A stretch of DNA of 43,827 nt from Planctomycetota bacterium (lineage in GTDB: Bacteria > Planctomycetota > MHYJ01 > JACQXL01 > JACQZI01). The DNA lies in the NCBI GenBank assembly GCA_016207825.1, contig JACQZI010000005.1, positions 65,122 to 108,948 on the forward strand. The letters are read 5' to 3'. Of this stretch, positions 6,318-43,246 are shown piece by piece. Position 1 is the first letter of the stretch; every line of letters begins with the position of its first letter. The position numbers and the translations under genes are program-made. Under the pieces are notes generated by a model. That model saw only the letters and a program-made list of their open reading frames with translations. It was not told the DNA's origin and did not search any database.

Positions 6318-7025
6318 ATGCTTATAGGGATTAACTGCGATATGGTTCATAAAAAAGATTCCGACTATTGCCAATTGCCGGAAAATTATTACCAGGCAGT
6401 GAGGCGTGCGGGAGGACTTCCGATTATCTTGCCTTCAATCACCGATAAAAAAACAATAACCGAATTGTTAGGCTTAATCGACGGGCTGGTTTTTTCCGGA
6501 GGGGATGATATCCACCCCGCGGTTTACGGAGAAAAAATATTGCCTAAAACAAACCTGATCCTGAAAGCGAAGCAACAGTTTGATTTCTCGCTGGTGCGGC
6601 AGGCTTGGCACAAACGTATTCCAACTCTCGGCATCTGTTACGGCGCACAACTTATGAATGTGGCTTTGGGCGGAAACCTTATCCAGGATATAAAACGCGA
6701 CCTATCGCTTGGCTCGCACAGTTTCACAAAACACCGGCTATATATCCTAGAAACATCCCTTCTGTATAATATAATCCGAAAACCTTCTATCCATGTTAAC
6801 AGCCTTCATCATCAAGCAATCAGGGAAATTGGTAAAAGCCTGCGGATAAGCGCGCGGTCTGATGACGGCTTGACAGAAGGAATAGAATCAAAACTGCCTG
6901 GCCACTTTTTTATCGGTGTGCAATGGCATCCAGAAAAGATAATGGATACGCCCGAATCAAAAAGCTTATTTAAGGAATTAATCCGGCAGGCAAAAATATA
7001 TTCCGAGACCCAAAAGTGCGGCTAA
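6318..7025 (+). CDS. Peptidase C26 / gamma-glutamyl-gamma-aminobutyrate hydrolase-like class I amidotransferase
   Basis: A 235-residue cytoplasmic hydrolase of the PuuD-like class I glutamine amidotransferase fold. Visible motifs are GLVFSGGDDIHPAVYGE, the nucleophile elbow GICYGAQLMNVALGG with Cys107, the HVNSLHHQAI segment, and the His-Glu part of the triad in VGVQWHPE. Most relatives have Arg right after the nucleophile (GICRG); here it is Tyr. Family members cleave gamma-glutamyl bonds, for example in putrescine breakdown, but no polyamine genes adjoin it, so the substrate is open. The start has a GGGG at about 10-nt spacing. It is convergent with the lipoprotein gene at 7033. Confidence 0.9.
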   Translation: MLIGINCDMVHKKDSDYCQLPENYYQAVRRAGGLPIILPSITDKKTITELLGLIDGLVFSGGDDIHPAVYGEKILPKTNLILKAKQQFDFSLVRQAWHKRIPTLGICYGAQLMNVALGGNLIQDIKRDLSLGSHSFTKHRLYILETSLLYNIIRKPSIHVNSLHHQAIREIGKSLRISARSDDGLTEGIESKLPGHFFIGVQWHPEKIMDTPESKSLFKELIRQAKIYSETQKCG

Positions 7026-8261: not shown

Positions 8262-9605
8262 TTATTTCAAAAGGAAGTCTTTTGTTTTCTGGTTAATGAA
8301 ATTGATGAGTTCGTTAATATCCGCTTCTATTTTTTGGTTATCCGGATTTATCAGTTTTGAATCTAATTTATCTATCAGCATCAAAGAAAACTCTATCGTA
8401 TATGCTAATTGCTTATAACTTTCTTTCTTGGGATCCTTATCAGGCGGTATTTCCAGAAAGAGAGAAAGATCGGCATAGGTTTTCATTTCCAGTATTAATC
8501 CGTTGAGATATTTTACGAGCGCGAATTTAAAATCTGCCCAAGTTTCGTTTCCTTTTTCCTTATCTTTAAGGCATTTCCCGTAAACCGAGCCGGTTTCATA
8601 TATCCGGGCAATAAGGTCACGGCTGATTCTCAACAAAACTTCGCTTTCAAGCAAATCTATTTGCTGAATCTTGCGTTCATCAGATAATTTAAACGGCTCA
8701 ACCAAATACGCCGGCAAAGGAATACCCTTCAGTACGTTTTTAGCATCAAAAGCCGCCCGGCGGTATCCCCGATAATAGTCCAGTATTTGATTAGTTGTCT
8801 GATAAATATTGGATGCTGTCCCGAAGCACACCCCTTCTTCTTTCAGGCTTGCAATCATTTTATTAATTTTAGCCAACCATTCTTTTTCCCAAGCCAGCCA
8901 ATCGTTTGAAAGCGCATCAAATATTTCCTCCTTGTTTTTAATACCGAATACCTTTTTTAGATTCTCTTCGATTGCACTATCGCCCTGTTTCATTTTTTCT
9001 ATATCGTATACCTTATCCATCAACTGCTGGTAAAGCTCCTTATGCTCGTTTATCAAACCGATAAAAGCAATTACCGATTTCTGCCTTATATTAGGGATGT
9101 TTGTAGACAAAACATTTATCAGGTGGTAATCACCCAGCTGATTAAGGGAATCTTCGGAAAAGTTTTCTGCGATCAGCACATCTTTAGGTTGGTCGGGGAA
9201 GAGTCTAATTTTAACCTCATAATATTCGGCATTAAAAGAAAGCTTAAAACCGGCAAACCGGACGAAATACTGCCCATCATTATTTACGCTAACCTTTAGC
9301 ATATCAATCAGTTGAACATTATCCGGCTGGTTAAGCAGTGAAATCCCGCCCTTCAATTCCACCTGCAACAAGGTGTTGGCCGGCAGGTTGGTTTCACCGC
9401 GCACAAAGATACTTTCGGCACCTTGTTCTTCAACCAATTGTGTTTCTGTTTTCAGAAACGCCTTTTTTTTATCCTCCTCGTCTTTCTTAAAATCTGCGAT
9501 ATCGGCTTCTTCAGCAAATAGCCGGCGTTGTTCATATAAAACCGCCGTTAAAACAACGGTTAAAACCAAAATCATATAAATAAACAGAATGTTTTTATTC
9601 TTCAT
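8262..9605 (-). CDS. Membrane-anchored envelope protein, unknown function, paralogue-like to its downstream neighbour
   Basis: A 447-residue protein with one N-terminal membrane segment (IYMILVLTVVLTAVLY), probably an uncleaved anchor with the rest in the periplasm. Residues about 55-160 look like a beta domain (FVRGETNLPANTLLQVEL; GQYFVRFAGFKLSFNAEYY), and the remainder is almost all helical. The TNLP phrase and the order of parts repeat in the next gene. No known family comes to mind. Its ATG overlaps the TGA of the GspK-like gene in an ATGA junction, so it is very probably translated together with it. The context suggests a type II secretion or pilus-like accessory role; this is inference only. 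Confidence 0.8.
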   Translation of the reverse strand: MKNKNILFIYMILVLTVVLTAVLYEQRRLFAEEADIADFKKDEEDKKKAFLKTETQLVEEQGAESIFVRGETNLPANTLLQVELKGGISLLNQPDNVQLIDMLKVSVNNDGQYFVRFAGFKLSFNAEYYEVKIRLFPDQPKDVLIAENFSEDSLNQLGDYHLINVLSTNIPNIRQKSVIAFIGLINEHKELYQQLMDKVYDIEKMKQGDSAIEENLKKVFGIKNKEEIFDALSNDWLAWEKEWLAKINKMIASLKEEGVCFGTASNIYQTTNQILDYYRGYRRAAFDAKNVLKGIPLPAYLVEPFKLSDERKIQQIDLLESEVLLRISRDLIARIYETGSVYGKCLKDKEKGNETWADFKFALVKYLNGLILEMKTYADLSLFLEIPPDKDPKKESYKQLAYTIEFSLMLIDKLDSKLINPDNQKIEADINELINFINQKTKDFLLK

Positions 9606-12600
9606 GGCAACACATAAGACTCACATATTTGCGGCGATGATTTTATAAAAGTTATGGATATATCATCAAAAACAGGGCTTGTCAAAAGCGGGCTCAACAC
9701 ATCGCCGCGCAATCCCCGGAAAATCACTTTGTATTTAACCGATTCGGAAGGGTTTTGTCTCCAAGGTATTTCAAACCTGGCTTTTTCGGGATCGGACATG
9801 ATTTCTGAAATCGTGCTCCCCCTCTCATCGAAAAACTGTATCCCAATCGGCGCGGATGCTTGTTCCGCATCTGACGGGAAATAAGAGGTCCAGTCAACGC
9901 GGCATTTAATAAAGCCAGGATTATCTTTCTTCAATGCGTTTTCATCAGTATCGCCAATCTCTTTTGCCGCAACAAGAATCCCCGGTATATCAACGGGACC
10001 GGAGGTAAAAACTCCTTCTTCCCTATAATAACGGCCTTCATGAAATTCTCCGAGTATAAACTCTTTCGCATCTGGCACAGTTCTATGTATCTGGATAGCA
10101 ATCTCATCAAAGGTGGCATCCGCCGGAATATTCCAAAAAGGGGCATCGGCACGCTCCCCTAATCTAATCAGATTATCCCTTGAAAAATCAATATACTCGC
10201 TGATATAAGGTGGATATTTTTCCTGGCTTGTTCCAATATATTTTCCTATGTCCCGACCGTTAATGCAAAATGCGGTTATATCCGAAGGTGTCAATTTAGT
10301 TTCCCTTATCCTTCCTTCACCCTTGCACCGAGGACAAATAATTACGTTTGATAGCCAATCGATTTTTCCTTTACCGTTACAATTCGGACAATTATAACTC
10401 CATATTCTAGGGGGAGGATTGGTATCCCATGCAATTCCTATATGAATCCACCCCTTCCCGCGGTTGGATTCCAAGGGGTTACTAAAAATATACTCAGCCA
10501 CCTTATCGCCTTTTCTTTTATCCACATCCCACATCCAAATAGCCTGCGGACCAGGAGAAAACCTTAATCCTTTCCATCCACGGGGCTGGTAATTCGAAGG
10601 AATCAAAAACAGGCTGAAAAGGTTCTGCGTTTCATCACTTTTTGATAAACTAAAGATAATCTGCGGCTTGGCTGATTTGGCAAAATAAGCCGGTTTTACC
10701 CAAAAACTAACCGTCCCGCGAAACCGTTTTTCCCCAAATAAATTACGGTGAATAAAAGCATCAACCAGATTATTTTCCGCTTTATACGAAGGACACGACA
10801 TCAATTCTGAATATATTCCATCAGGATAAAGCAAACCGGCCGTAGCATTTTCCGCGGCAAATAGAGACTTCTCTTCATTGTCAAATACCGAAACTCCCGT
10901 TCCTTCAACGGCAGACGGGTTTCCCGCACTGTAATCCGCTTTTAAAGTGCCGTCAAAATGATTCCGGAAAGTAAGCAACTCGTTGCGTTCCTTGTTGCGG
11001 GAGCGGTTTTGGGTCGTCGCACGCATAATCTGCCCATCAGCAACACACTGTTCCTGGTAATCACCGATATCGGGCTCCGGGTAAAGCTGCAAGGTTTTAT
11101 TATGGTGCGTGAACTCATTTTTTCCGGAGCGGGAAATCACCCCATGCGAAAAATCTTGCTGGGTAGTTTCGTAATGGTTTTCGAATAATTTAACCACCTG
11201 CCGTATTTTCTGCAATCCGGTAACATTAAAATCGCCTTCTCCTTTCTCCGCACTCTCTATCGGGTTTGCAACAGACCTTATAACAATCCCTGTTGATTCT
11301 ATTTCAAAATAACCTTGGGGCTGGAAGCAAAATTCTGTTGTATAAACATTTAAATCTGATTTATCGATAACCCGTAAAACTAATTCATTGGGATTAAAAT
11401 CATTAAGCATAGTGTTAGGATTCGCACTGGCTTTGATAAGATCCGCTTTTGCCCGGGCTATTTCGTATTCTTCCGAACTTTCGATTGAACCAAAAACACC
11501 TTCTTCCAACAAACGGTCGCAAAACCTGTTAAAATCCGTCCATGAAAAGAAAGGCCGCACCTGCCGTTCCTTCATAATCAATTCAGCCAGCCTGGAGGTT
11601 AATTTATAATCAATGCCCGCTTCTTTAATTACCCCTATTTTAAGGCCTTCCCCCGCCTCATAATTGAATTTATCAAGAGGCTCTCCCTCTTCATCGGATA
11701 ATTCCGGATTAACAACACCTGACTGGGCAATATAAGACCCGTTAAGACCCAATAAAACAGCCATTAATACAGGTTTTGGGGCTGTGTTGATATTTACCGG
11801 AACCCTCGGCTCTGTTTCCAACAGGCCGGGATTTAACCGGCTGATTCCGGTAATATTCTCGCCATGCTTCGGCTGACCCAAGCGTTTAGAAAATGGTTTT
11901 GGTTTTATCACCTTTATGTTAGGCTGTCCCCAAACAGTAATATACGGCTCTATCCTGCGGTATTCTTTTTCCGTAAGCATTTCTTTTAATTCTTCTTTTA
12001 TGGAAAATGATTTATTGGAAAGTTTCTCCCTGCCGGCAAAAATCCGGTCGCCTAATTCGCTGTCTACATCAAGGATTTTTCCCAGGTTATTTAACAGCTG
12101 AAGAAACCCTTCACCCCGCCCGTTTATATATATCTGACCGCTTGTATCGATGATTTTTAAAACATATAAATCACTGACATCACCTTCAAGGCGCGGAATG
12201 ATGCCCGAACACCCGATAGTTTTACCCTGTATTTTCTGGGTTTTGCCCGAGGCAAAAGAAGGAGCTAACGCCAGTTCGCCCGGGCATTCAATAATATCAA
12301 GCTGCTTGTTTTTATTCTGATCCTCTTCCTTGTCGAGCTGATTGTTATGATTATAATCCTCTCCCCAGTAAAACCACGGGGTATTGTTATCATTGATAAA
12401 ATAAACATAAGGATTGTTTTGGAATTCTATAAGAGCTCTTTCGATACCCGCCTGTGCCAAGAATTTAGCCCTGAACTGGTCGATATAAGCAGAGTGGCTA
12501 ACCCCCTGGACACGGTTTAATATCCAAAAGACCACCATCATCAAGCCTAGAACCACCAAAAACCCTAGCAATAAGACAACGGATTGTCCTTTCTCTTTTG

Positions 12601-12637
12601 AATTCTGTCCGGCAAACCGGCGGATTGATAAATTCAT
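9602..12637 (-). CDS. Giant GspK-like type II secretion pseudopilin with LamG-like region and CxxCxGxG motifs
   Basis: A 1011-residue protein, about three times the size of typical GspK. The N-terminus KGQSVVLLLGFLVVLGLMMV is a prepilin-like segment with Gly before the hydrophobic stretch and no Glu at +5, as in GspK. Around residues 85-110 is a Ca-binding-like Asp/Asn ladder (DYNHNNQLDKEE, DQNKNKQLD). The GspK helix-hairpin-helix phrase VNINTAPKPVLMAVLLG follows near residue 280. The C-terminal half looks like a concanavalin/LamG fold (GTVSFWVKPAYF) and carries two CxxCxGxG motifs at Cys750/753 and Cys768/771, a pattern best known from DnaJ zinc fingers. No Shine-Dalgarno is seen at the ATG. 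No other gsp genes are in the window. Confidence 0.82.
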   Translation of the reverse strand: MNLSIRRFAGQNSKEKGQSVVLLLGFLVVLGLMMVVFWILNRVQGVSHSAYIDQFRAKFLAQAGIERALIEFQNNPYVYFINDNNTPWFYWGEDYNHNNQLDKEEDQNKNKQLDIIECPGELALAPSFASGKTQKIQGKTIGCSGIIPRLEGDVSDLYVLKIIDTSGQIYINGRGEGFLQLLNNLGKILDVDSELGDRIFAGREKLSNKSFSIKEELKEMLTEKEYRRIEPYITVWGQPNIKVIKPKPFSKRLGQPKHGENITGISRLNPGLLETEPRVPVNINTAPKPVLMAVLLGLNGSYIAQSGVVNPELSDEEGEPLDKFNYEAGEGLKIGVIKEAGIDYKLTSRLAELIMKERQVRPFFSWTDFNRFCDRLLEEGVFGSIESSEEYEIARAKADLIKASANPNTMLNDFNPNELVLRVIDKSDLNVYTTEFCFQPQGYFEIESTGIVIRSVANPIESAEKGEGDFNVTGLQKIRQVVKLFENHYETTQQDFSHGVISRSGKNEFTHHNKTLQLYPEPDIGDYQEQCVADGQIMRATTQNRSRNKERNELLTFRNHFDGTLKADYSAGNPSAVEGTGVSVFDNEEKSLFAAENATAGLLYPDGIYSELMSCPSYKAENNLVDAFIHRNLFGEKRFRGTVSFWVKPAYFAKSAKPQIIFSLSKSDETQNLFSLFLIPSNYQPRGWKGLRFSPGPQAIWMWDVDKRKGDKVAEYIFSNPLESNRGKGWIHIGIAWDTNPPPRIWSYNCPNCNGKGKIDWLSNVIICPRCKGEGRIRETKLTPSDITAFCINGRDIGKYIGTSQEKYPPYISEYIDFSRDNLIRLGERADAPFWNIPADATFDEIAIQIHRTVPDAKEFILGEFHEGRYYREEGVFTSGPVDIPGILVAAKEIGDTDENALKKDNPGFIKCRVDWTSYFPSDAEQASAPIGIQFFDERGSTISEIMSDPEKARFEIPWRQNPSESVKYKVIFRGLRGDVLSPLLTSPVFDDISITFIKSSPQICESYVLP

Positions 12638-14107: not shown

Positions 14108-16237
14108 CTATTCGCCTATCGTTTCCTTTTCCGGCTCAACCGCCGGTTCGGCCTGCTTTTTCAATGATTTCGTAGTCTTGCATTCCGGATAGCCTGAACA
14201 GGCCATAAAACGCCAGCCTTTGCGGCTGCGTTTTATCACCATCGGCTTACCGCATTTCTCGCAAACTTCTCCTGTAGACTGGGTTTCAACCTTGGGTTTA
14301 AGAGATACAATGTTCTTACATTCAGGATATCCCGAACAGGCAAGAAACTTGCCGAAACGCCCCCACCGTTCAACCAACGGTTTTCCGCATTTATCGCATT
14401 TTTCGCCGGTTGCACTTTCTTTGCCCTTCGACGATGCCATTTCCAAAGTCGCCTTTTCCAGGTCACGTTTGAACAGCCTGTAAAAAGCCTTCAGCAAAGA
14501 AATCCAATCTGAACGCTCTTCTTCTATCGCGTCCAGCCTCTTTTCCATCTGAGAAGTAAACTTTGTGTTAAGAATATCCGTAAAATAAGGAATCAGCTTT
14601 TCGGTCACGAGTATCCCCAATTCGGTCGCCACCAGTTGCCTCCCGGCTTTTTGGACATAGCCCCTGTCCTGGATGGTGGAAATAATCGGGGCGTAAGTGG
14701 ATGGCCGTCCGATGCCGAATTTCTCCAGCGCCTTAACCAGGCTCGCCTCGTTATAACGCGGCGACGGCTGGGTAAAGTTGGCAGCCGGGAAAAGCTTCAT
14801 CAATAAAACCTTTTCGCCGCCTTTCATTTCCGGGAGAAGCTGCTCCTCAGGTTCGTATAATGCCAGGAAACCTTTTGAAACCAATCGCCTTTCGTCCACC
14901 CTGAAAACGCATTTATTTACATCCATCTTATCAGCCGTTGGCTGGGCTTCCCCGGAAATAATATTCACATCAAGCGGCAACGGCTTCTTTAAAGCCGCTT
15001 CTATCTCGATTGTCTTATTTCTCCAATGGCCCGGCTTCATCTGGGTGGCGACAAACCGCTTCCAGATAAGATTATAAAGCTTGTATTGCTCCGGCGTCAG
15101 GTATCCTTTTATCTCAGAAGGCATTTGACTGACATAAGTCGGCCGGATAGCCTCGTGCGCATCCTGCGCGCCCTTACGCGATTTATAATGGCGCGGCGTT
15201 TTAAAGACCTCGCTTTTGCCGTATTTCTTGGAGATAAAATCACGGCATTCCTTGATGGCAATCTCGCTGACCCTGACCGCATCGGTCCTCATATAGGTAA
15301 TCAGCGCCACCGGCTCGCCTTCGATATCCACGCCTTCATAAAGCTGCTGGGCGACTATCATGGTTTTCTTGGTGGAAAATCCCATTTGCGTCGAGGCCTG
15401 CTGCTGCAGGGTGCTCGTGATAAAAGGAGGTGGCGGCTGTTGATTATTCTCCCGCTCCCTGATATTCGCAACCTTAAAATCTGTCGCCTCAAGAGCGCTG
15501 ACTAAATTCCTTGCGTTGGCTTCATTCGGGATAAAAACCTCGGTTGAATCATCAGAGGGACTCCCGACCTGCTTATCGTCTATTTTATAAAGAGCTGCCT
15601 CAAAAGGCTTCTCATCATCTTCTTTTATCTTAAAATCTCCGCTGATTTTCCAGTATTCCTGCGGCTTGAAATCGCCTATTTCCTTTTCCCGCTCGACCAG
15701 CAATCTGACCGCCACGGATTGGACACGACCCGCAGAAAGCCCGCGTGCAACCTTGCGCCAGAGGAGCGGCGAAAGCTTGTAGCCGACAATCCTGTCCAGG
15801 AAACGCCTGGCCTGCTGGGCATTGACCAGGCTCATGGAAATTTGGCGTGTTTTCTTAAAGGCATCCAAAACCGCCTGGGGCGTAATTTCGTTAAAAGTAA
15901 CGCGTTCCACCCTCTCCGGCGCCAGCTCCAGCCCTTCCATCAAATGCCAGGCAATCGCCTCGCCCTCGCGGTCCGGGTCGGTCGCCAGGTAAACCTTATC
16001 CACCTCGGCGAGCGAACTTCTCAATTCGCTTATTACCTTATCGCGCGATTCCATCAGCTGGTATTTCGGCTTAAAATCCTTCTTTATATTTATCCCAAAG
16101 CCCTTCTTCGGAAGGTCGCGGATATGGCCGTAGGACGCCTTGATTTCAAAGTTATCGCCCAATATCTTGGAAAGCGTTTTTACCTTTGCAGGAGACTCAA
16201 CGATGACCAAAGATTTCTTTTTGCTGCTTTTCTTCAT
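14108..16237 (-). CDS. topA: DNA topoisomerase I (type IA)
   Basis: A 709-residue enzyme that relaxes negative supercoils. The Toprim domain opens with SLVIVESPAKVKTLSKIL (Glu14) and contains the acidic block YLATDPDREGEAIAWHL. The catalytic tyrosine is Tyr315 in TYMRTDAVRVSE, close to Tyr319 of E. coli TopA. SAGRVQSVAVRLL and GIGRPSTYAPII are also family hallmarks. Two C-terminal four-Cys zinc ribbons are present (CDKCGKPL...CSGYPEC and CEKCGKPM...CSGYPEC), then a short Glu-rich tail. The ATG overlaps the TGA of the upstream osmC-like gene (ATGA), so translation is probably coupled. Confidence 0.97.
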   Translation of the reverse strand: MKKSSKKKSLVIVESPAKVKTLSKILGDNFEIKASYGHIRDLPKKGFGINIKKDFKPKYQLMESRDKVISELRSSLAEVDKVYLATDPDREGEAIAWHLMEGLELAPERVERVTFNEITPQAVLDAFKKTRQISMSLVNAQQARRFLDRIVGYKLSPLLWRKVARGLSAGRVQSVAVRLLVEREKEIGDFKPQEYWKISGDFKIKEDDEKPFEAALYKIDDKQVGSPSDDSTEVFIPNEANARNLVSALEATDFKVANIRERENNQQPPPPFITSTLQQQASTQMGFSTKKTMIVAQQLYEGVDIEGEPVALITYMRTDAVRVSEIAIKECRDFISKKYGKSEVFKTPRHYKSRKGAQDAHEAIRPTYVSQMPSEIKGYLTPEQYKLYNLIWKRFVATQMKPGHWRNKTIEIEAALKKPLPLDVNIISGEAQPTADKMDVNKCVFRVDERRLVSKGFLALYEPEEQLLPEMKGGEKVLLMKLFPAANFTQPSPRYNEASLVKALEKFGIGRPSTYAPIISTIQDRGYVQKAGRQLVATELGILVTEKLIPYFTDILNTKFTSQMEKRLDAIEEERSDWISLLKAFYRLFKRDLEKATLEMASSKGKESATGEKCDKCGKPLVERWGRFGKFLACSGYPECKNIVSLKPKVETQSTGEVCEKCGKPMVIKRSRKGWRFMACSGYPECKTTKSLKKQAEPAVEPEKETIGE

Positions 16238-17775: not shown

Positions 17776-18050
17776 AGCGTTCAAGAATTTAACACAACCG
17801 CTTGCTGGGGTCAAGAATTAATTCGTTATGACTTTAGCACTGATGTTACATTAATGTATATAAAGAGAAAGAAACAAGCGTAAACTAAACGCCCCTCATT
17901 CGCCTAATCTACGGTGCTTTTCACTTCAATCTTGACAAAGCGGTTTTTGATGATTCAGTAGAATACAATATAATACACTTTCAGCCTTAAAGAATAAATA
18001 TATTCGTTTTCGCTCAGGGGGGTACTGCCCCCCACCCCTTAATTACATCC
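17776..18050. other. Intergenic stretch left of array 1, with palindrome and G-rich hairpin
   Basis: No gene is visible. TACATTAATGTA at 17847-17858 is a perfect 12-bp palindrome about 70 bp upstream of the rluD-type start and could be an operator. GGGGGG (18017-18022) and CCCCCC (18028-18033) form a 6-bp hairpin with a 5-nt loop just before the array. TTTCGCTCA (18008-18016) and GGGGGGTA here are repeated in front of the second array (42793-42801 and 42841-42848). Confidence 0.5.
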
Positions 18051-18358
18051 CCCCGGCCTATAAGATACTTCTCCCCGGTCTATAATCTACCTCTCCCCGG
18101 CCTATAATATACATGCCCCCGGTCTACAATCTACCTCTCCCCGGTCCATAGTATACAGGTCCTCGGCCTATAATATTTATCTCCCCCGTCTATAGTATAC
18201 ATGCCCCCCTCCTATAATATTCTTCTCCCCCATCCATAATACTTATTCCCCCGGTCTATGATATACTTCTCTCCCGCCTATAAGATACCTCTCCCCGGCC
18301 TACAATATACTTCTCCCCGGTCTACAGTATACATCTCCCCCGTCTATAATATACATGG
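18051..18358. repeat. Array 1: 14 tandem 22-bp units, degenerate but in exact register
   Basis: Fourteen consecutive units of exactly 22 bp fill this interval with no insertion or deletion, although most units differ at a few positions. A typical unit begins CCCCGG, has a core such as TATAATATAC, and ends in TCT or TGC. Five units carry a perfect TATAAT. The period is not a multiple of three, so no repeat protein is encoded. The array lies between two genes transcribed away from each other. No dyad spans the whole unit, so it is not a CRISPR array, and there are no spacers. Confidence 0.93.
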
Positions 18359-18401
18359 GCCGGGTGGATAAAGTTAATGAGGAGTAATTTAAAAACAGTT
18401 A

Positions 18402-20191: not shown

Positions 20192-21880
20192 CTACACCTC
20201 CAACCGTTCAATGGATTTCAGTCCATACCTCAGAGGAAAATATGCCGCGGCAACGCCTATTACGGTGATTAAGCCGGTTGTTACCATCCGCCAGAAATAC
20301 AAATCGTGCCTGCCTAAATATCTGAATGAATGATATAAATGCGATGGAGCGGCTTGTATGAATACAATCGATAAAACAAATATCATGCTTAAAACCAGGG
20401 TCAGTGTCCCGCCGAAGCCGGCAACCATCTTGGAAGGATTATCTTCCTTAAGATTCGGGTATATCGCGCCGAAGCCGACCGCCAGTCCTGAAAGACCCAG
20501 GCATATAATAAAAACCGTATACGCCTGCATTATCGTATCATAAAGCGAAATCCTCAACATCTGGTTAGAGACAAACATCAGGCTCTCGCTTATCACCAAA
20601 GAACTTATCAGGGCAAGCAGGAATTTCCCGTAGACAATGGTTCGCCGGGTAATCGGCGCCATGCCGATGACCCAAAACCTTTGGCCTTCCAGACTCAACT
20701 GCGGATAGACGAAACGCGTGGTAAAGGTCGCCATGGTCAGGCTGGTTGCCATGAGATTGAGGAACGATATCAGGAACTGCCAGAACCTTTCCGTAGTCGG
20801 CAGATACGGAAGATTCCTTAAGTTGACGAAATATACGCCCAAGAGGCCGAAGAAGATAAGCGATTGCGACCACTGGACAGGGTCGCGTAATAACGATTTT
20901 ATATCCTTGATTATTATTTCCCTTAAAGGCCTCGGCAGTAAAAAGAGACATATCCCCCCTAAGAAATCCACCCATGTGCTAACCGGATATTTCTTATCGC
21001 TCCGTGATGATTGCATCCGCGAATAGCCCGTAAGATAATACCGGCGGACAAATGCCGTCAAGAGGAACACGATAAAAAGAGACTGCGCGAGGATAAACAG
21101 GAAAAAGAAACTTATCCCGTGCAAGTCCGCCCTTGACGAGGACATCACCCCCTGCACCAGCCAGTAACTGGGGAGAAGCGGGTTCTGGGCAAAGGAGAAC
21201 TTGCTTAAGAACTCCTCCATCCAGCGCACGGTAAAGGTCAACGCGGTTCCGCGCAGTTCTATAAGAGTGCTTATCAAAACCATGGCTAAGCCTATTGTCG
21301 CGGCAACGGCGACAAGGACAATCTGCCTTTTACGGCGCGGCATGTAGGTGGCAATCATCATGGAGATAAATATGCCCATCCCGGCCGGGATAAAGAGATA
21401 AATGATGATAAAGATAACGCTCAAAGGATAAAAGGAAAAAGGCAATCCCCGGTGGATTCCGTAAGCAAAAAGGAACGGGGTCACCAGAAAAAGGAACGCC
21501 CACGATGAAAAGCTCAGTGATTCCATTAACTTGTAACCGAACAAACTGCCGTTGCTTAAAGGGAAAGGTATCAGGAATTCGGTTTCCCTGGCTTTATAAA
21601 GGCCGGAAAAGCTGATGATGGCGTTGCTGACGACAAGCATAAGTGTCAAAGCAAGGAATAATAGCCCGAAAAGATATTCAGTAAGGAAATCTATCCCGAC
21701 ATCCGGAAAGGTGGAAAGGAAAACGTATCCCCTGGTAAAAACAGCATACAGGCCGAACCAGAAACTAACTGTTGCCAGGAATATAACGATAATCTTAAGC
21801 TTGGATTCCCGGAACAAGCCGAGCAGGCGGTTTTTCAATCCCCAGAATTTGGTCTGGGCTAATGCCGTAAAATTATTCAT
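20192..21880 (-). CDS. ABC-2-type exporter permease subunit
   Basis: A 562-residue integral membrane protein with about twelve hydrophobic segments. The arrangement (GLYKARETEFLIPFPLSN after the third helix, and a C-terminal LEGQRFWVIGMAPITRRTIV loop) resembles large ABC exporter permeases encoded next to an EcsA-like ATPase. It should form the membrane channel for the ATPase encoded 23 bp upstream; the cargo is unknown. The start has AAGGA about 12 nt away. About 100 bp separate it from the convergent TPR lipoprotein gene; that gap contains CCGTTAG/CTAACGG and GCCCT/AGGGC inverted pairs but no clear terminator. Confidence 0.87.
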   Translation of the reverse strand: MNNFTALAQTKFWGLKNRLLGLFRESKLKIIVIFLATVSFWFGLYAVFTRGYVFLSTFPDVGIDFLTEYLFGLLFLALTLMLVVSNAIISFSGLYKARETEFLIPFPLSNGSLFGYKLMESLSFSSWAFLFLVTPFLFAYGIHRGLPFSFYPLSVIFIIIYLFIPAGMGIFISMMIATYMPRRKRQIVLVAVAATIGLAMVLISTLIELRGTALTFTVRWMEEFLSKFSFAQNPLLPSYWLVQGVMSSSRADLHGISFFFLFILAQSLFIVFLLTAFVRRYYLTGYSRMQSSRSDKKYPVSTWVDFLGGICLFLLPRPLREIIIKDIKSLLRDPVQWSQSLIFFGLLGVYFVNLRNLPYLPTTERFWQFLISFLNLMATSLTMATFTTRFVYPQLSLEGQRFWVIGMAPITRRTIVYGKFLLALISSLVISESLMFVSNQMLRISLYDTIMQAYTVFIICLGLSGLAVGFGAIYPNLKEDNPSKMVAGFGGTLTLVLSMIFVLSIVFIQAAPSHLYHSFRYLGRHDLYFWRMVTTGLITVIGVAAAYFPLRYGLKSIERLEV

Positions 21881-32324: not shown

Positions 32325-34328
32325 CTATTTAATCCGCGCCGGCATAATTACCAATGTATGTTCAGATAACTGCAATCTCTTCTGAAGAATAAAAGCGGTT
32401 TCATTATGCAGCATCGGATGATACCAGCGCTCCTGCTGGAAAACCAATTGCCCCGCGAAGAATGTCACGTGGGAAAATTCCTTGCTCAAATCCAGGCAGA
32501 GTTTTTCAAGTTCGGCCACCACGTCCGTGCCGACCGCCATCCGGTAATCCGCCGGCATGCCCTGCCCGTGCATCAGTTCGACATACTTTTTAAGGTCGTC
32601 CTCGGTCTGATTTTTAAGGCGCTCAATCATATCTTCGCCTTTGAAGATGCCGGAATCAACCGCGCCGACGGAAAGGAAAACCACGTTCTTAAACTGGTTG
32701 GGGAATTCGCGGAAGGCCGCGAAGACGGTATGGATTCCCAGCCCGTTATATCCGCCCACCAAAACGGCCGCGGTCGGCTGGGTTTTATCTACCGCGCCGG
32801 GCAAAACTTCCGTTACCCTGGGCATACTGGAAAGATGCGTGTAAAGCATGGCGAGTTTTCTGCCCAGCGCCCGATAGTGCCGCCTGACCCAGAAGCAGAA
32901 AAGTATGATGGCTCCCGTAACCGCCAGCGTCAACCAGCCGCCTTCCGGGAATTTCTCGTAAACGGTCACACAAAGAATCGTTGAGCACATAGTCAAGCCG
33001 ATGACGTGGATGGAAATCTTTCTCTTCCATCCGGCAGGGTCTTTGCGCCGGCTGAAATAAAAGCGGCACATGGAAAGCTCGGTCATGGAAAAAGTCAGGA
33101 AAACATTGATGCTGTACATGACGACGATCTGGCGGACATCGCCCTTGGTATAGAGAAGCGCGATAAGCGCCGCCCCACCCATCAACATTACCCCGTTCTG
33201 GATGGTCAGGCGGTCGGATAATGAAGCAAACTTGCGCGGCATCCAGGAATCCATCGCCATATTGGAAAGCACGCGCGGCCCATCCACGAAACCCGCTTGC
33301 GCCGCCACCACCAGAAGCGCGCCTTCGGAAACCAGGGTCAGCACCACGAAAATATAACCGAGCGGAATGACTTCAATAAATCTCTCAACCAAAACGGCGT
33401 TCATGGTTTTTCCCTCAACCGCGCTGACATTCCAGAGGAGATAGCAGAACAAAAGACCGGAAGCGGTAAAGGCAAGCGAAATCGCCATATAGAGCATGGT
33501 CCGCTTGCCGGTTTGCACATGCGGCTCGCGCATTATCGCCAGCCCGTTGGAAACCGCTTCTATTCCCGTGTAAGTGCCGCCGCCCAGCGAATAGGCGTAA
33601 AGGAAAAGCGCAAACATACCGCCGATGCCGATTGTGGACAATCCGTTTGAAAATCCCTGCTGTGCCGTATCCAGCGTTGCCCCAAGCGACGGCGCCTTTA
33701 CTAAGAACCCGACCGAAATCAGGATAAAATGCGTCACCACGAAAAGCATGAATATCGGCGTAAGGATAAGGATGGATTCCTTGACGCCCCGTAAGTTCAG
33801 GATAATCAGCACGAGTATAAAGAAAATCTCGACGAATATTTTATATGGGTGCCAGGCTATCGGCAGAAAGCTGAACAAAGCATCTCCCGAAGCGGCGATT
33901 GAAACAGTAATGGTCAGTATATAATCCACGAAAAGCGCGCAGCCGGAAACAAGGCCCGCCTTCTCCCCCAACAGTTTCGTGGCGACGACATAACCGCCTC
34001 CTCCGTGCGGGAAATGCTCGATGACGCGGCTGTAGGCAATGGCAATGACAAACACGGTCAGCGCCATTACCGCTGCCAGGATGATTGCCAGGTAAGTATG
34101 CGTCCCGAGCGTGCGGAAGGCCTCATCCGGTCCGTAGGCAGATGAAGAAAGCCCGTCCGCGCCCAGACCCACCCAAGCAAGGAGCGCAATCAGGGAAAGC
34201 CGGTGCAGGATGCCCTTATCCTTCAGATCACGAGGCGGGCCGATTAAGAAACGCTTCAGGCGCGCGCCAAAATCCGGTTCTTCTTGAGGGGTGTTAAGAT
34301 TGGAGCCGTTGAGTGGATTGCCTTCCAT
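32325..34328 (-). CDS. KimA-like potassium importer (APC superfamily)
   Basis: A 667-residue membrane protein with about twelve transmembrane helices and a C-terminal cytosolic domain (about 460-667). The N-terminal GADGLSSSAYGPDEAFRTLG, HFPHGGGGYVVATKLLGEKA and FVDYILTITVSIAASGDAL blocks closely follow the KimA (YdaO) pattern of the amino acid-polyamine-organocation superfamily. KimA imports K+ with protons and is held down by c-di-AMP. A c-di-AMP riboswitch in its leader supports the same role here. The ATG is preceded by GGAGG at about 6-nt spacing. It stands alone on the minus strand, with its own promoter at 34648-34676. Confidence 0.9.
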   Translation of the reverse strand: MEGNPLNGSNLNTPQEEPDFGARLKRFLIGPPRDLKDKGILHRLSLIALLAWVGLGADGLSSSAYGPDEAFRTLGTHTYLAIILAAVMALTVFVIAIAYSRVIEHFPHGGGGYVVATKLLGEKAGLVSGCALFVDYILTITVSIAASGDALFSFLPIAWHPYKIFVEIFFILVLIILNLRGVKESILILTPIFMLFVVTHFILISVGFLVKAPSLGATLDTAQQGFSNGLSTIGIGGMFALFLYAYSLGGGTYTGIEAVSNGLAIMREPHVQTGKRTMLYMAISLAFTASGLLFCYLLWNVSAVEGKTMNAVLVERFIEVIPLGYIFVVLTLVSEGALLVVAAQAGFVDGPRVLSNMAMDSWMPRKFASLSDRLTIQNGVMLMGGAALIALLYTKGDVRQIVVMYSINVFLTFSMTELSMCRFYFSRRKDPAGWKRKISIHVIGLTMCSTILCVTVYEKFPEGGWLTLAVTGAIILFCFWVRRHYRALGRKLAMLYTHLSSMPRVTEVLPGAVDKTQPTAAVLVGGYNGLGIHTVFAAFREFPNQFKNVVFLSVGAVDSGIFKGEDMIERLKNQTEDDLKKYVELMHGQGMPADYRMAVGTDVVAELEKLCLDLSKEFSHVTFFAGQLVFQQERWYHPMLHNETAFILQKRLQLSEHTLVIMPARIK

Positions 34329-34419
34329 ACAGAACCTCCGTGGATAATCCCTATTAGAGAGTCGGGCCCTCCGGGATTTCCGGCACTCGTCCGAATGGAC
34401 ATTCGTCCGGGCGGGGGTT

Positions 34420-34634
34420 CTCTCCTTTAACGCCTACGGGGTTAGCTGACGGGCTCGGGCAAAAAGAGTTGCCCTACCCCGCACCTACTTTTGTAGATAA
34501 ACTATCTTTTGCCTGATAGCCTTTCTTCCAAAAGTAAGTGCGGGGATTCGCCCCAATTACCTGCCCCCGATTAAATCGGGGTTCGGGCGGGTCGGTTCCC
34601 CCATTCCCCTACTATATAGGAGATTCGGCGATGG
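34420..34634 (-). promoter_or_regulatory. Cyclic di-AMP riboswitch (ydaO/yuaA class)
   Basis: On the minus strand the conserved blocks of the class occur in order: CGCCGAATC, GGGGGAACCG, TTGGGGCGAATC, then GTAGGGC...GCCCGAGCCC, GTCAGCTAACCCCG and GTAGGCGTTAAAGG. GCC and GGC of the first and last blocks form P1. A long variable hairpin arm (about 34495-34560) is inserted, as the class allows. It begins about 10 nt after the predicted transcription start and ends about 90 nt before the ATG of the KimA-like gene. In this class c-di-AMP binding turns expression off. The segment from there to the GGAGG contains GGAC/GTCC hairpins but no T-run, so control may act on translation. Confidence 0.95.
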
Positions 34635-34647
34635 GAATTTTACGCGT

Positions 34648-42718: not shown

Positions 42719-42823
42719 ATCTTCACCCTCCCTCCATAAGTACATGCAGGAGTGGGGCAAATGTCACAGGAAAAATTGAAATTAGATAAAAATTTCGCTC
42801 AAACTCAATATAAGCGGGTTTCA

Positions 42824-42848
42824 AGGTGCACCTAGGGGGAGGGGGGTA
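42824..42848. other. Left flank of array 2: palindrome and G-rich run
   Basis: AGGTGCACCT (42824-42833) is a perfect 10-bp palindrome followed by GGGGGAGGGGGGTA. TTTCGCTCA at 42793-42801 and GGGGGGTA here have exact copies before array 1 (18008-18016 and 18017-18024). Confidence 0.5.
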
Positions 42849-42858
42849 GATTCCGACA

Positions 42859-43166
42859 CTGTTCTAAAAATCCACCTCTCACGTGCCAAAAAAACGCCGT
42901 ATACGTGCCAAAAAATTGCCTCTCACGTGCCAAAAAAATGCCTCAGACGTGCGAAAAATTTACCTCTGGCGTGCCAAAAAAAGGCCTCAGTCGTGCGAAA
43001 AATTTACCTCTCACGTGTTTAAAAAATGCCTTGGACGTGCTTAAAATTTGCCTCTGATGTGCCAAAAAAATGCCTTAGATGTGCCAAAAACTCGCCTCTC
43101 ATGTGCCAAAAAAACATCTCAGCTGTGCGAAAAATCCACCTCAGATGCGCGAAAAAATATAGGTGG
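42859..43166. repeat. Array 2: thirteen full 22-bp units plus one degenerate edge unit
   Basis: Units of exactly 22 bp run without indels. A typical unit begins ACGTGCC, then has a 5-7 bp A-tract, and ends GCCTCTC or GCCTCAG. Between about 42903 and 43122 units ending CTCTC/CTCTG largely alternate with units ending CTCAG/TTAG, which gives a 44-bp higher-order repeat. Each A-tract is one period, about 2.1 helical turns, from the next, so the DNA should be intrinsically curved. Apparent open reading frames here are by-products of the repetition. The array lies between the 5' end of the 257-residue gene and the 3' end of the 158-residue gene. Confidence 0.93.
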
Positions 43167-43246
43167 GGGAATTTTGAAAAATGTCAAAAACAACCAAAGC
43201 CACAGATTACAGTGCAAAGCCTCTTGTAGGGGCAGAATAATCTAAT

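Follow-up and report, generated by a model that had tools for sequence, protein, structure and literature searches.

The two 22-bp repeat arrays found in the window, i.e., the whole stretch of 43,827 nucleotides analysed here (G000:C5:65122-108948, from the source genome G000 of 2.89 Mb in 42 contigs), almost certainly belong to a family of intergenic elements specific to this lineage, in which a G-run leader is joined to ~13 units of exactly 22 bp. The leader, the period, the approximate unit number and, at two loci, the position are kept among these elements, while the unit sequence differs between sister species and even between paralogs with similar flanks.

The first array, A1 (18040..18369, + strand), consists of 15 direct, non-coding 22-bp units (AATATACATCTCCCCGGTCTAT), and the second, A2 (42866..43157, + strand), of ~13 direct, non-coding 22-bp units (AAAAAAATGCCTCAGACGTGCC) with a strong 44-bp super-period. 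A1 is preceded by a leader in the form of a G-run/C-run hairpin (GGGGGGTACTGCCCCCCACCCC, 18017..18038, + strand; example form GGGGGGTACTGCCCCCC), and its tail (GGGCCGGGTGGATAAAGTTAATGAGGAG, 18357..18384, + strand) is common to a second copy on contig C30, soon after which the homology ends in the alignment. The leader of A2 comprises G-runs (GGGGGAGGGGGGTA, 42835..42848, + strand) lacking the C-run partner, and the array is followed by the tail TATAGGTGGGGG (43158..43169, + strand). The motif CTCAATATAAGCG, which was found close to several arrays, lies near A2 at 42804..42816 (+ strand). A consensus scan detected a weak sigma-70-like promoter match, TTGATG-16-TATAAT, at 17947..17974 (+ strand), ~40 bp upstream of the A1 leader, which we regard as an optional part of the element; unlike A1, no promoter-like site was found before the leader of A2. 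The protein encoded by the pseudouridine synthase gene adjoining A1 is 92% identical to one in the Candidatus Brocadiia MAG DeMMO3_52. That identity points to a planctomycete of this group, and the isolate name suggests a deep-subsurface origin.

The initial annotation had described both arrays as having an exact 22-bp period and ~14 units each. The period was borne out, as no other place in the window comes near A1 and A2 in lag-22 autocorrelation (peaks of 0.70 and 0.72, against 0.39 for the next highest), and the unit numbers deviate from that figure by about one in either direction. The two arrays had also been assigned to one family; beyond chance they do share the period, the unit number and a G-run leader on the same side, but kinship by unit sequence had to be rejected. 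The ~14 of 22 matching positions cited for it compare with 12/22 between the consensus units (best rotation) and 15/22 for the best unit pair, and A1 set against column-permuted A2 yields 13.1 on average, with a value of 15 attained in 7 of the 100 trials, so that the match is at chance level; array pairs in general average 13.1 as well. Likewise, TACCTCT, taken as another sign of kinship, is a common 7-mer with 55 copies in 819 kb. The upstream words TTTCGCTCA (at 18008 and 42793) and GGGGGGTA (at 18017 and 42841) do precede both arrays, and within the window occur only there, all on the + strand, but TTTCGCTCA immediately precedes the G-run in A1 and lies ~40 bp ahead of it in A2. The ATATA-like stretch near GGTGG is present in both tails, as had been noted.

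A genome-wide system of sequence-variable, spacing-constant arrays had been proposed as well, and this idea gained support from a sequence-independent autocorrelation scan of 40 stretches of the source genome plus the window (839 kb, ~29% of the genome). The scan detected 36 arrays (A2 being counted twice, since one stretch overlaps the window), 24 with a period of 22 bp, 10 with a period of 21 bp and two outliers with other periods. The outcome was thus neither these two arrays alone nor periods scattered over 18-30 bp; the period is fixed, although there are two classes (21 and 22 bp) in place of the single 22-bp system first envisaged. Block-shuffled sequence gave no arrays, even with a lowered threshold. 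TRF, a second caller that permits indels and any period, returned periods of 21 or 22 bp for 20 of 22 arrays in G000, 10 of 11 in the sister species G001 (same genus; the remaining one 42 bp), 16 of 17 in G003 and all three in G007, the latter two genomes belonging to another family of the same order. We counted eight 22-bp and four 21-bp arrays in 242 kb of G001, 10 and seven in 470 kb of G003, and two and one in 61 kb of G007. With TRF, no arrays were found in E. coli (100 kb), a Clostridiaceae contig or relatives of family f4 (101 kb), and 227 kb of other planctomycetes contained two cases, with periods of 18 and 21 bp. Extrapolated from the sample, the whole G000 genome is estimated to carry roughly 80-95 arrays of the 22-bp class.

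Arrays of the 22-bp class are intergenic in 29 of 33 cases, though ~90% of the sampled sequence lies under ORFs. Their units, mostly 9-16 in number (mode 13), abut without spacers, and the arrays fall under the generic definition of a minisatellite (head-to-tail direct repeats of roughly 10-60 bp). The exact period is held even in arrays with units only ~60% alike. An 11-bp sub-period is absent from the 22-bp arrays, and a simple helical signal within the unit is therefore not seen.

Comparison of the units showed them to be mostly unrelated between arrays. With arrays oriented by their leaders, the consensus similarity averages 9.74/22, against 9.61/22 in the reverse-complement control, and kin pairs are few (A1/C30, A2/C12, L128/L137, L029/L050 and L030/L043). 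The conservation of position is based on two orthologous loci, rlmN and pilin. At the former, the interval from rlmN to a common CTTGTCGATATAGCT flank holds a G-run leader plus a 22-bp array in G001 (L128:12348-12640) as well as in G000 (L164:2590-2900), but the units of the two arrays are unrelated. At the pilin locus, G001 (L137) bears an L128-type array adjoining a broken IS66; the corresponding site in G000 (L170), expected to be empty, turned out to hold an array that is different and decayed, with a GGGGGTACCTCCCCCC leader of its own and a 22-bp signal exceeding those of 500 shuffles. At a third locus (L139/L057), a 21-bp array is absent in G000. The site in G001 orthologous to A1 is interrupted by a contig end, and near the start of L016 there is a GGTTAC repeat at 10-12 bp spacing without a clear 22-bp signal. 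Among paralogs, L048 and L057 share a 350-bp upstream flank with 78% identity (139 bp at 91%), and their units match at 13/22, within the range of unrelated pairs. The two sides of the L128 and L124 arrays of G001 map to different G000 contigs (C7/C18 and C22/C23), and from this mapping some arrays may be located at rearrangement breakpoints.

The spacing behaves differently from the unit sequence. Within arrays, the net phase shift amounts to at most 20 bp against 2615 mismatches (0.008); repeated flanking sequences in this genome have 0.060 gap openings for each mismatch. Mutations that change the spacing thus look 4- to 8-fold depleted in arrays relative to flanking DNA, a figure to be read as an upper estimate because the scan favours arrays without indels, and in which mismatches to the consensus are non-independent events. 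The substitution spectrum inside the arrays is ordinary (~47-50% transitions), on which ground base-pair covariation was rejected as the cause of CCC/GGG toggling within units. Higher-order structure is weak, the best lag being most often 1, 2 or 4 units, which fits unequal exchange or multi-unit duplication.

Thirty of 47 22-bp arrays bear a G-run hairpin at one end or have a clearly stronger one there, with the orientation of nine arrays assigned by eye. Roughly one third of the arrays lack the leader hairpin or have a weak one. The leader is of the GGGG(G)TA..TACCCC hairpin type (further examples: GGGGTGGGGGTACCCTACCCC at L057 and GGGGTATACTACCCC in G003), a motif nearly absent from the remaining sampled DNA. 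Its strict form, GGGGTA-N1-6-TACCCC, has 10 copies in 1.53 Mb of G000, G001 and G003, nine of which have a 22-bp array no more than 100 bp away. Across 23 genomes of the class, we counted 8 copies in G000, 12 in G003, 3 in G007 and 1 in G001, against 0-2 in non-carriers. Relative to the leader, the strands show no C-rich, rut-like bias (21 vs 18 arrays). A second motif, CTCAATATAA, has 11 copies in the sampled 819 kb, and eight of these are no more than 250 bp away from an array; together with TTATATTGAG it makes up an inverted pair of 215 bp that precedes the L048 and L057 arrays, is degenerate at L019 and was not seen at the other arrays checked. This inverted pair is a MITE-like trait of a minority of arrays.

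Complete elements have now and then been copied elsewhere. A1 recurs, leader included, at G000:C30:56936-57234 (86% identical), A2 recurs with its leader at G000:C12:46760-47064 (69% identical), and L128/L137 is a further case. No target-site duplication was seen for the A1/C30 pair. A plasmid or phage origin of A1 was considered and dropped, as the array has no match in either collection.

The 21-bp class appears to be a sister set whose units form hairpins, and its mode of action may be different. Its units tend to hairpins (e.g., AGGTGGTTTTAACCACCT and GCCCTCAAGGGC), with a mean z of ~-0.8 compared with ~+0.1 for the 22-bp class, and the most strongly structured array of all is L098 (z ~-6). 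Many 21-bp arrays overlap ORFs. Some of these overlaps probably arose by chance, as 21 is a multiple of three, and others are probably coding repeats, the low-scoring cases inside long ORFs (L028, L084 and L085) among them. Two copies of a 21-bp array lie ~23 kb apart on the contig of the window (L052:4192-4591 and L053:6911-7187, G000:C5); their units are small hairpins, GCCCTCAAGGGC and GCTCTCAAGAGC, with paired changes, and their near flanks are similar. Similar hairpin units, of the TTCATCC..GGGATGAA type, were also observed in arrays of different families, L036:3523-3784 in G000 and L098:10810-11624 in G003, a likeness suggesting that the 21-bp class may keep more sequence than the 22-bp class. 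In G003, a 22-bp array is followed by a 21-bp array ~60 bp away at two places (L079:12447-13144 and L081:1152-1871), and in G001 the same order occurs with a distance of ~770 bp (L124:6384-7706). The two classes may be functionally paired.

As an account of the whole, we tentatively favour a MITE-like DNA lattice selected for its spacing. An array would be born beside the leader by repeated duplication in a fixed step of about two helical turns, through replication slippage or through nicking and re-synthesis at a set distance. The element may then be copied as a MITE-like unit or through gene conversion, and later selection would hold the units in register. As a lattice, its 22-bp spacing would matter and its bases would not; the spacing may provide self-similarity, or a rotational phase that survives the gain and loss of units. 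It is possible, albeit speculative, that the spacing is itself the conserved information: the leader hairpin would mark loci where any sequence amplifies to ~13 units of exactly 22 bp, and the cell would read period or self-similarity as the sequence turns over freely.

A possible but somewhat more doubtful alternative is that the arrays are selfish or neutral minisatellites carried by MITEs, dispersed and with a hairpin end, in which the slippage machinery sets the 22 bp and no host function exists. The copying of leader and array to unrelated loci, the mostly intergenic placement and the CTCAATATAA/TTATATTGAG pair enriched near arrays (L048/L057) agree with this, and BrickBuilt offers a precedent (PMC4596501). 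Nevertheless, at most arrays no shared terminal inverted repeat and no target-site duplication is apparent, units that are only ~60% alike still follow the exact period, and an array has been retained at two orthologous sites despite a changed unit. BrickBuilt, the minisatellite MITE of Porphyromonas gingivalis, is also the closest known system: an intergenic array of 23-nt units flanked by a leader and a tail (PMC4596501). The likeness extends to the spacer-free tandem array of a fixed unit, the one-sided leader, the many dispersed copies and the greater variability of one unit half, and the unit number of BrickBuilt varies between strains (PMC4596501). The copies of BrickBuilt, however, are built from a single unit sequence and have terminal inverted repeats that are IS-like (PMC4596501), whereas the present arrays have mostly unrelated units, a short G-run hairpin leader and two coexisting period classes. 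The correspondence in leaders concerns their presence alone (30/47 arrays), the leader sequences not being part of the comparison, and one common repeat, as in BrickBuilt, was not found here, the consensus similarity equalling that of the reverse-complement control.

The favoured lattice reading also has to be weighed against arrays of protein-binding sites (iteron-, parS- or tubC-like), read either by a private regulator for each array or by one degenerate regulator, which we consider unlikely. Plasmid iterons and centromere-type direct repeats have units of ~17-22 bp at helical spacing; in iterons, a single Rep or Par protein recognises the sequence common to the units. The spacing of about two helical turns and the ~13 copies recall iteron arrays, but the present arrays have no common recognition sequence across sites, as the consensus similarity is at control level (see above). 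Because the units have no motif in common, a conventional protein that binds a specific sequence cannot recognise every array. A genome would have to encode dozens of private regulators, and no 11-bp half-site signal was detected.

Less probable still is that the arrays are non-coding RNAs, in which the leader hairpin would cap the transcript and the repeats would act as structured or sponge RNA. Units of the 21-bp class form hairpins more often than shuffled units, L098 is strongly structured, and a promoter-like match stands ahead of the A1 leader. On the other hand, 22-bp units fold no better than shuffled ones on either strand, shuffling the unit order alters the energy little on average, the A2 leader lacks an upstream promoter-like site, and the sequence turnover is too fast for a base-pairing target. 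No Rfam match above the gathering score was found in the window and three loci (60 kb, including the L048, L057 and L128 arrays). General RNA structure of the 22-bp class was rejected by the column-shuffle, unit-order-shuffle and shuffled-consensus tests.

Polarised growth driven by the leader as in CRISPR adaptation, or synthesis linked to a reverse transcriptase or Argonaute, is largely refuted and very improbable. A leader at a single end and a unit length fixed by a ruler would suit such a process, but divergence shows no gradient from the leader (23 vs 18 arrays, p=0.31), and unlike CRISPR the units abut without unique spacers. No reverse transcriptase was found in G000, G003 or G007, and the Piwi domain is absent from all 15 genomes searched. 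The Y1 transposase (PF01797) does not track carriers, which have 1-2 copies against 0-5 in non-carriers; the arrays differ in this respect from REP/BIME with RAYT. Finally, chance, assembly artefact or coding repeats can be practically dismissed, since shuffled sequence yields no arrays, the independent assemblies of four species agree, and 22-bp arrays are intergenic amid mostly ORF-covered sequence, the few low-scoring 21-bp cases within long ORFs being the one point in favour of coding repeats.

Two other systems resemble the present elements in part. Intrastrand triplex motifs such as BoxC are like the leader only, being short, dispersed intergenic G-run/C-run fold-backs without strand bias; they are linked to rearrangement and highly conserved in sequence, and no attachment to period-locked arrays has been described for them (PMC4666352). 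By analogy, some leaders here (e.g., GGGGGTGGGGGTATCCTACCCC) might form a triplex-like fold. Borg genomes contain many independently arisen tandem repeat regions each, but Borgs are extrachromosomal, in methane-oxidising archaea, and the parts of that report considered here mention no fixed common period (PMC9879509). An open-access literature search, which is not proof of absence, found no description of sequence-free, period-locked arrays with a common leader. In a 21-kb contig of a Prevotellaceae MAG (L017, JAJPYQ010000094.1), we observed three or four short arrays with differing units at 2287-2504, 6574-6772, 14772-15012 and 20750-20871, with periods of 24, 23, 23 and 22 bp, a hint of a similar phenomenon in Bacteroidales.

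Besides the arrays, the window carries a c-di-AMP riboswitch (ydaO/yuaA, RF00379, 85.7 bits) at 34416-34640 (- strand), directly upstream of an amino-acid permease-like gene (32325-34328, - strand), in this Brocadiia planctomycete. A gene at 9602-12637 (- strand) encodes a 1011-aa protein without a Pfam match and adjoins that of a PQQ/beta-propeller protein.

Functional DNA is normally recognised by the conservation of its sequence. In the family described here, conservation between loci is essentially nil, and what is kept instead is the period, the length, the leader and, at two loci, the position. As a consequence, searches with BLAST, Rfam or motifs hardly detect the arrays, for which autocorrelation is the best means of discovery. 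Hidden period-locked arrays are predicted in other lineages as well, the Prevotellaceae contig with its periods of 22-24 bp being one such indication. The arrays also make the question of what fixes the unit length of a minisatellite testable. The overall pattern suggests that spacing or self-similarity, and not sequence, is used by the cell or by the element; if the spacing is indeed selected, these arrays would be a bacterial counterpart, in a small genome, of the evolution of satellite DNA, with its fast turnover and constant unit length.
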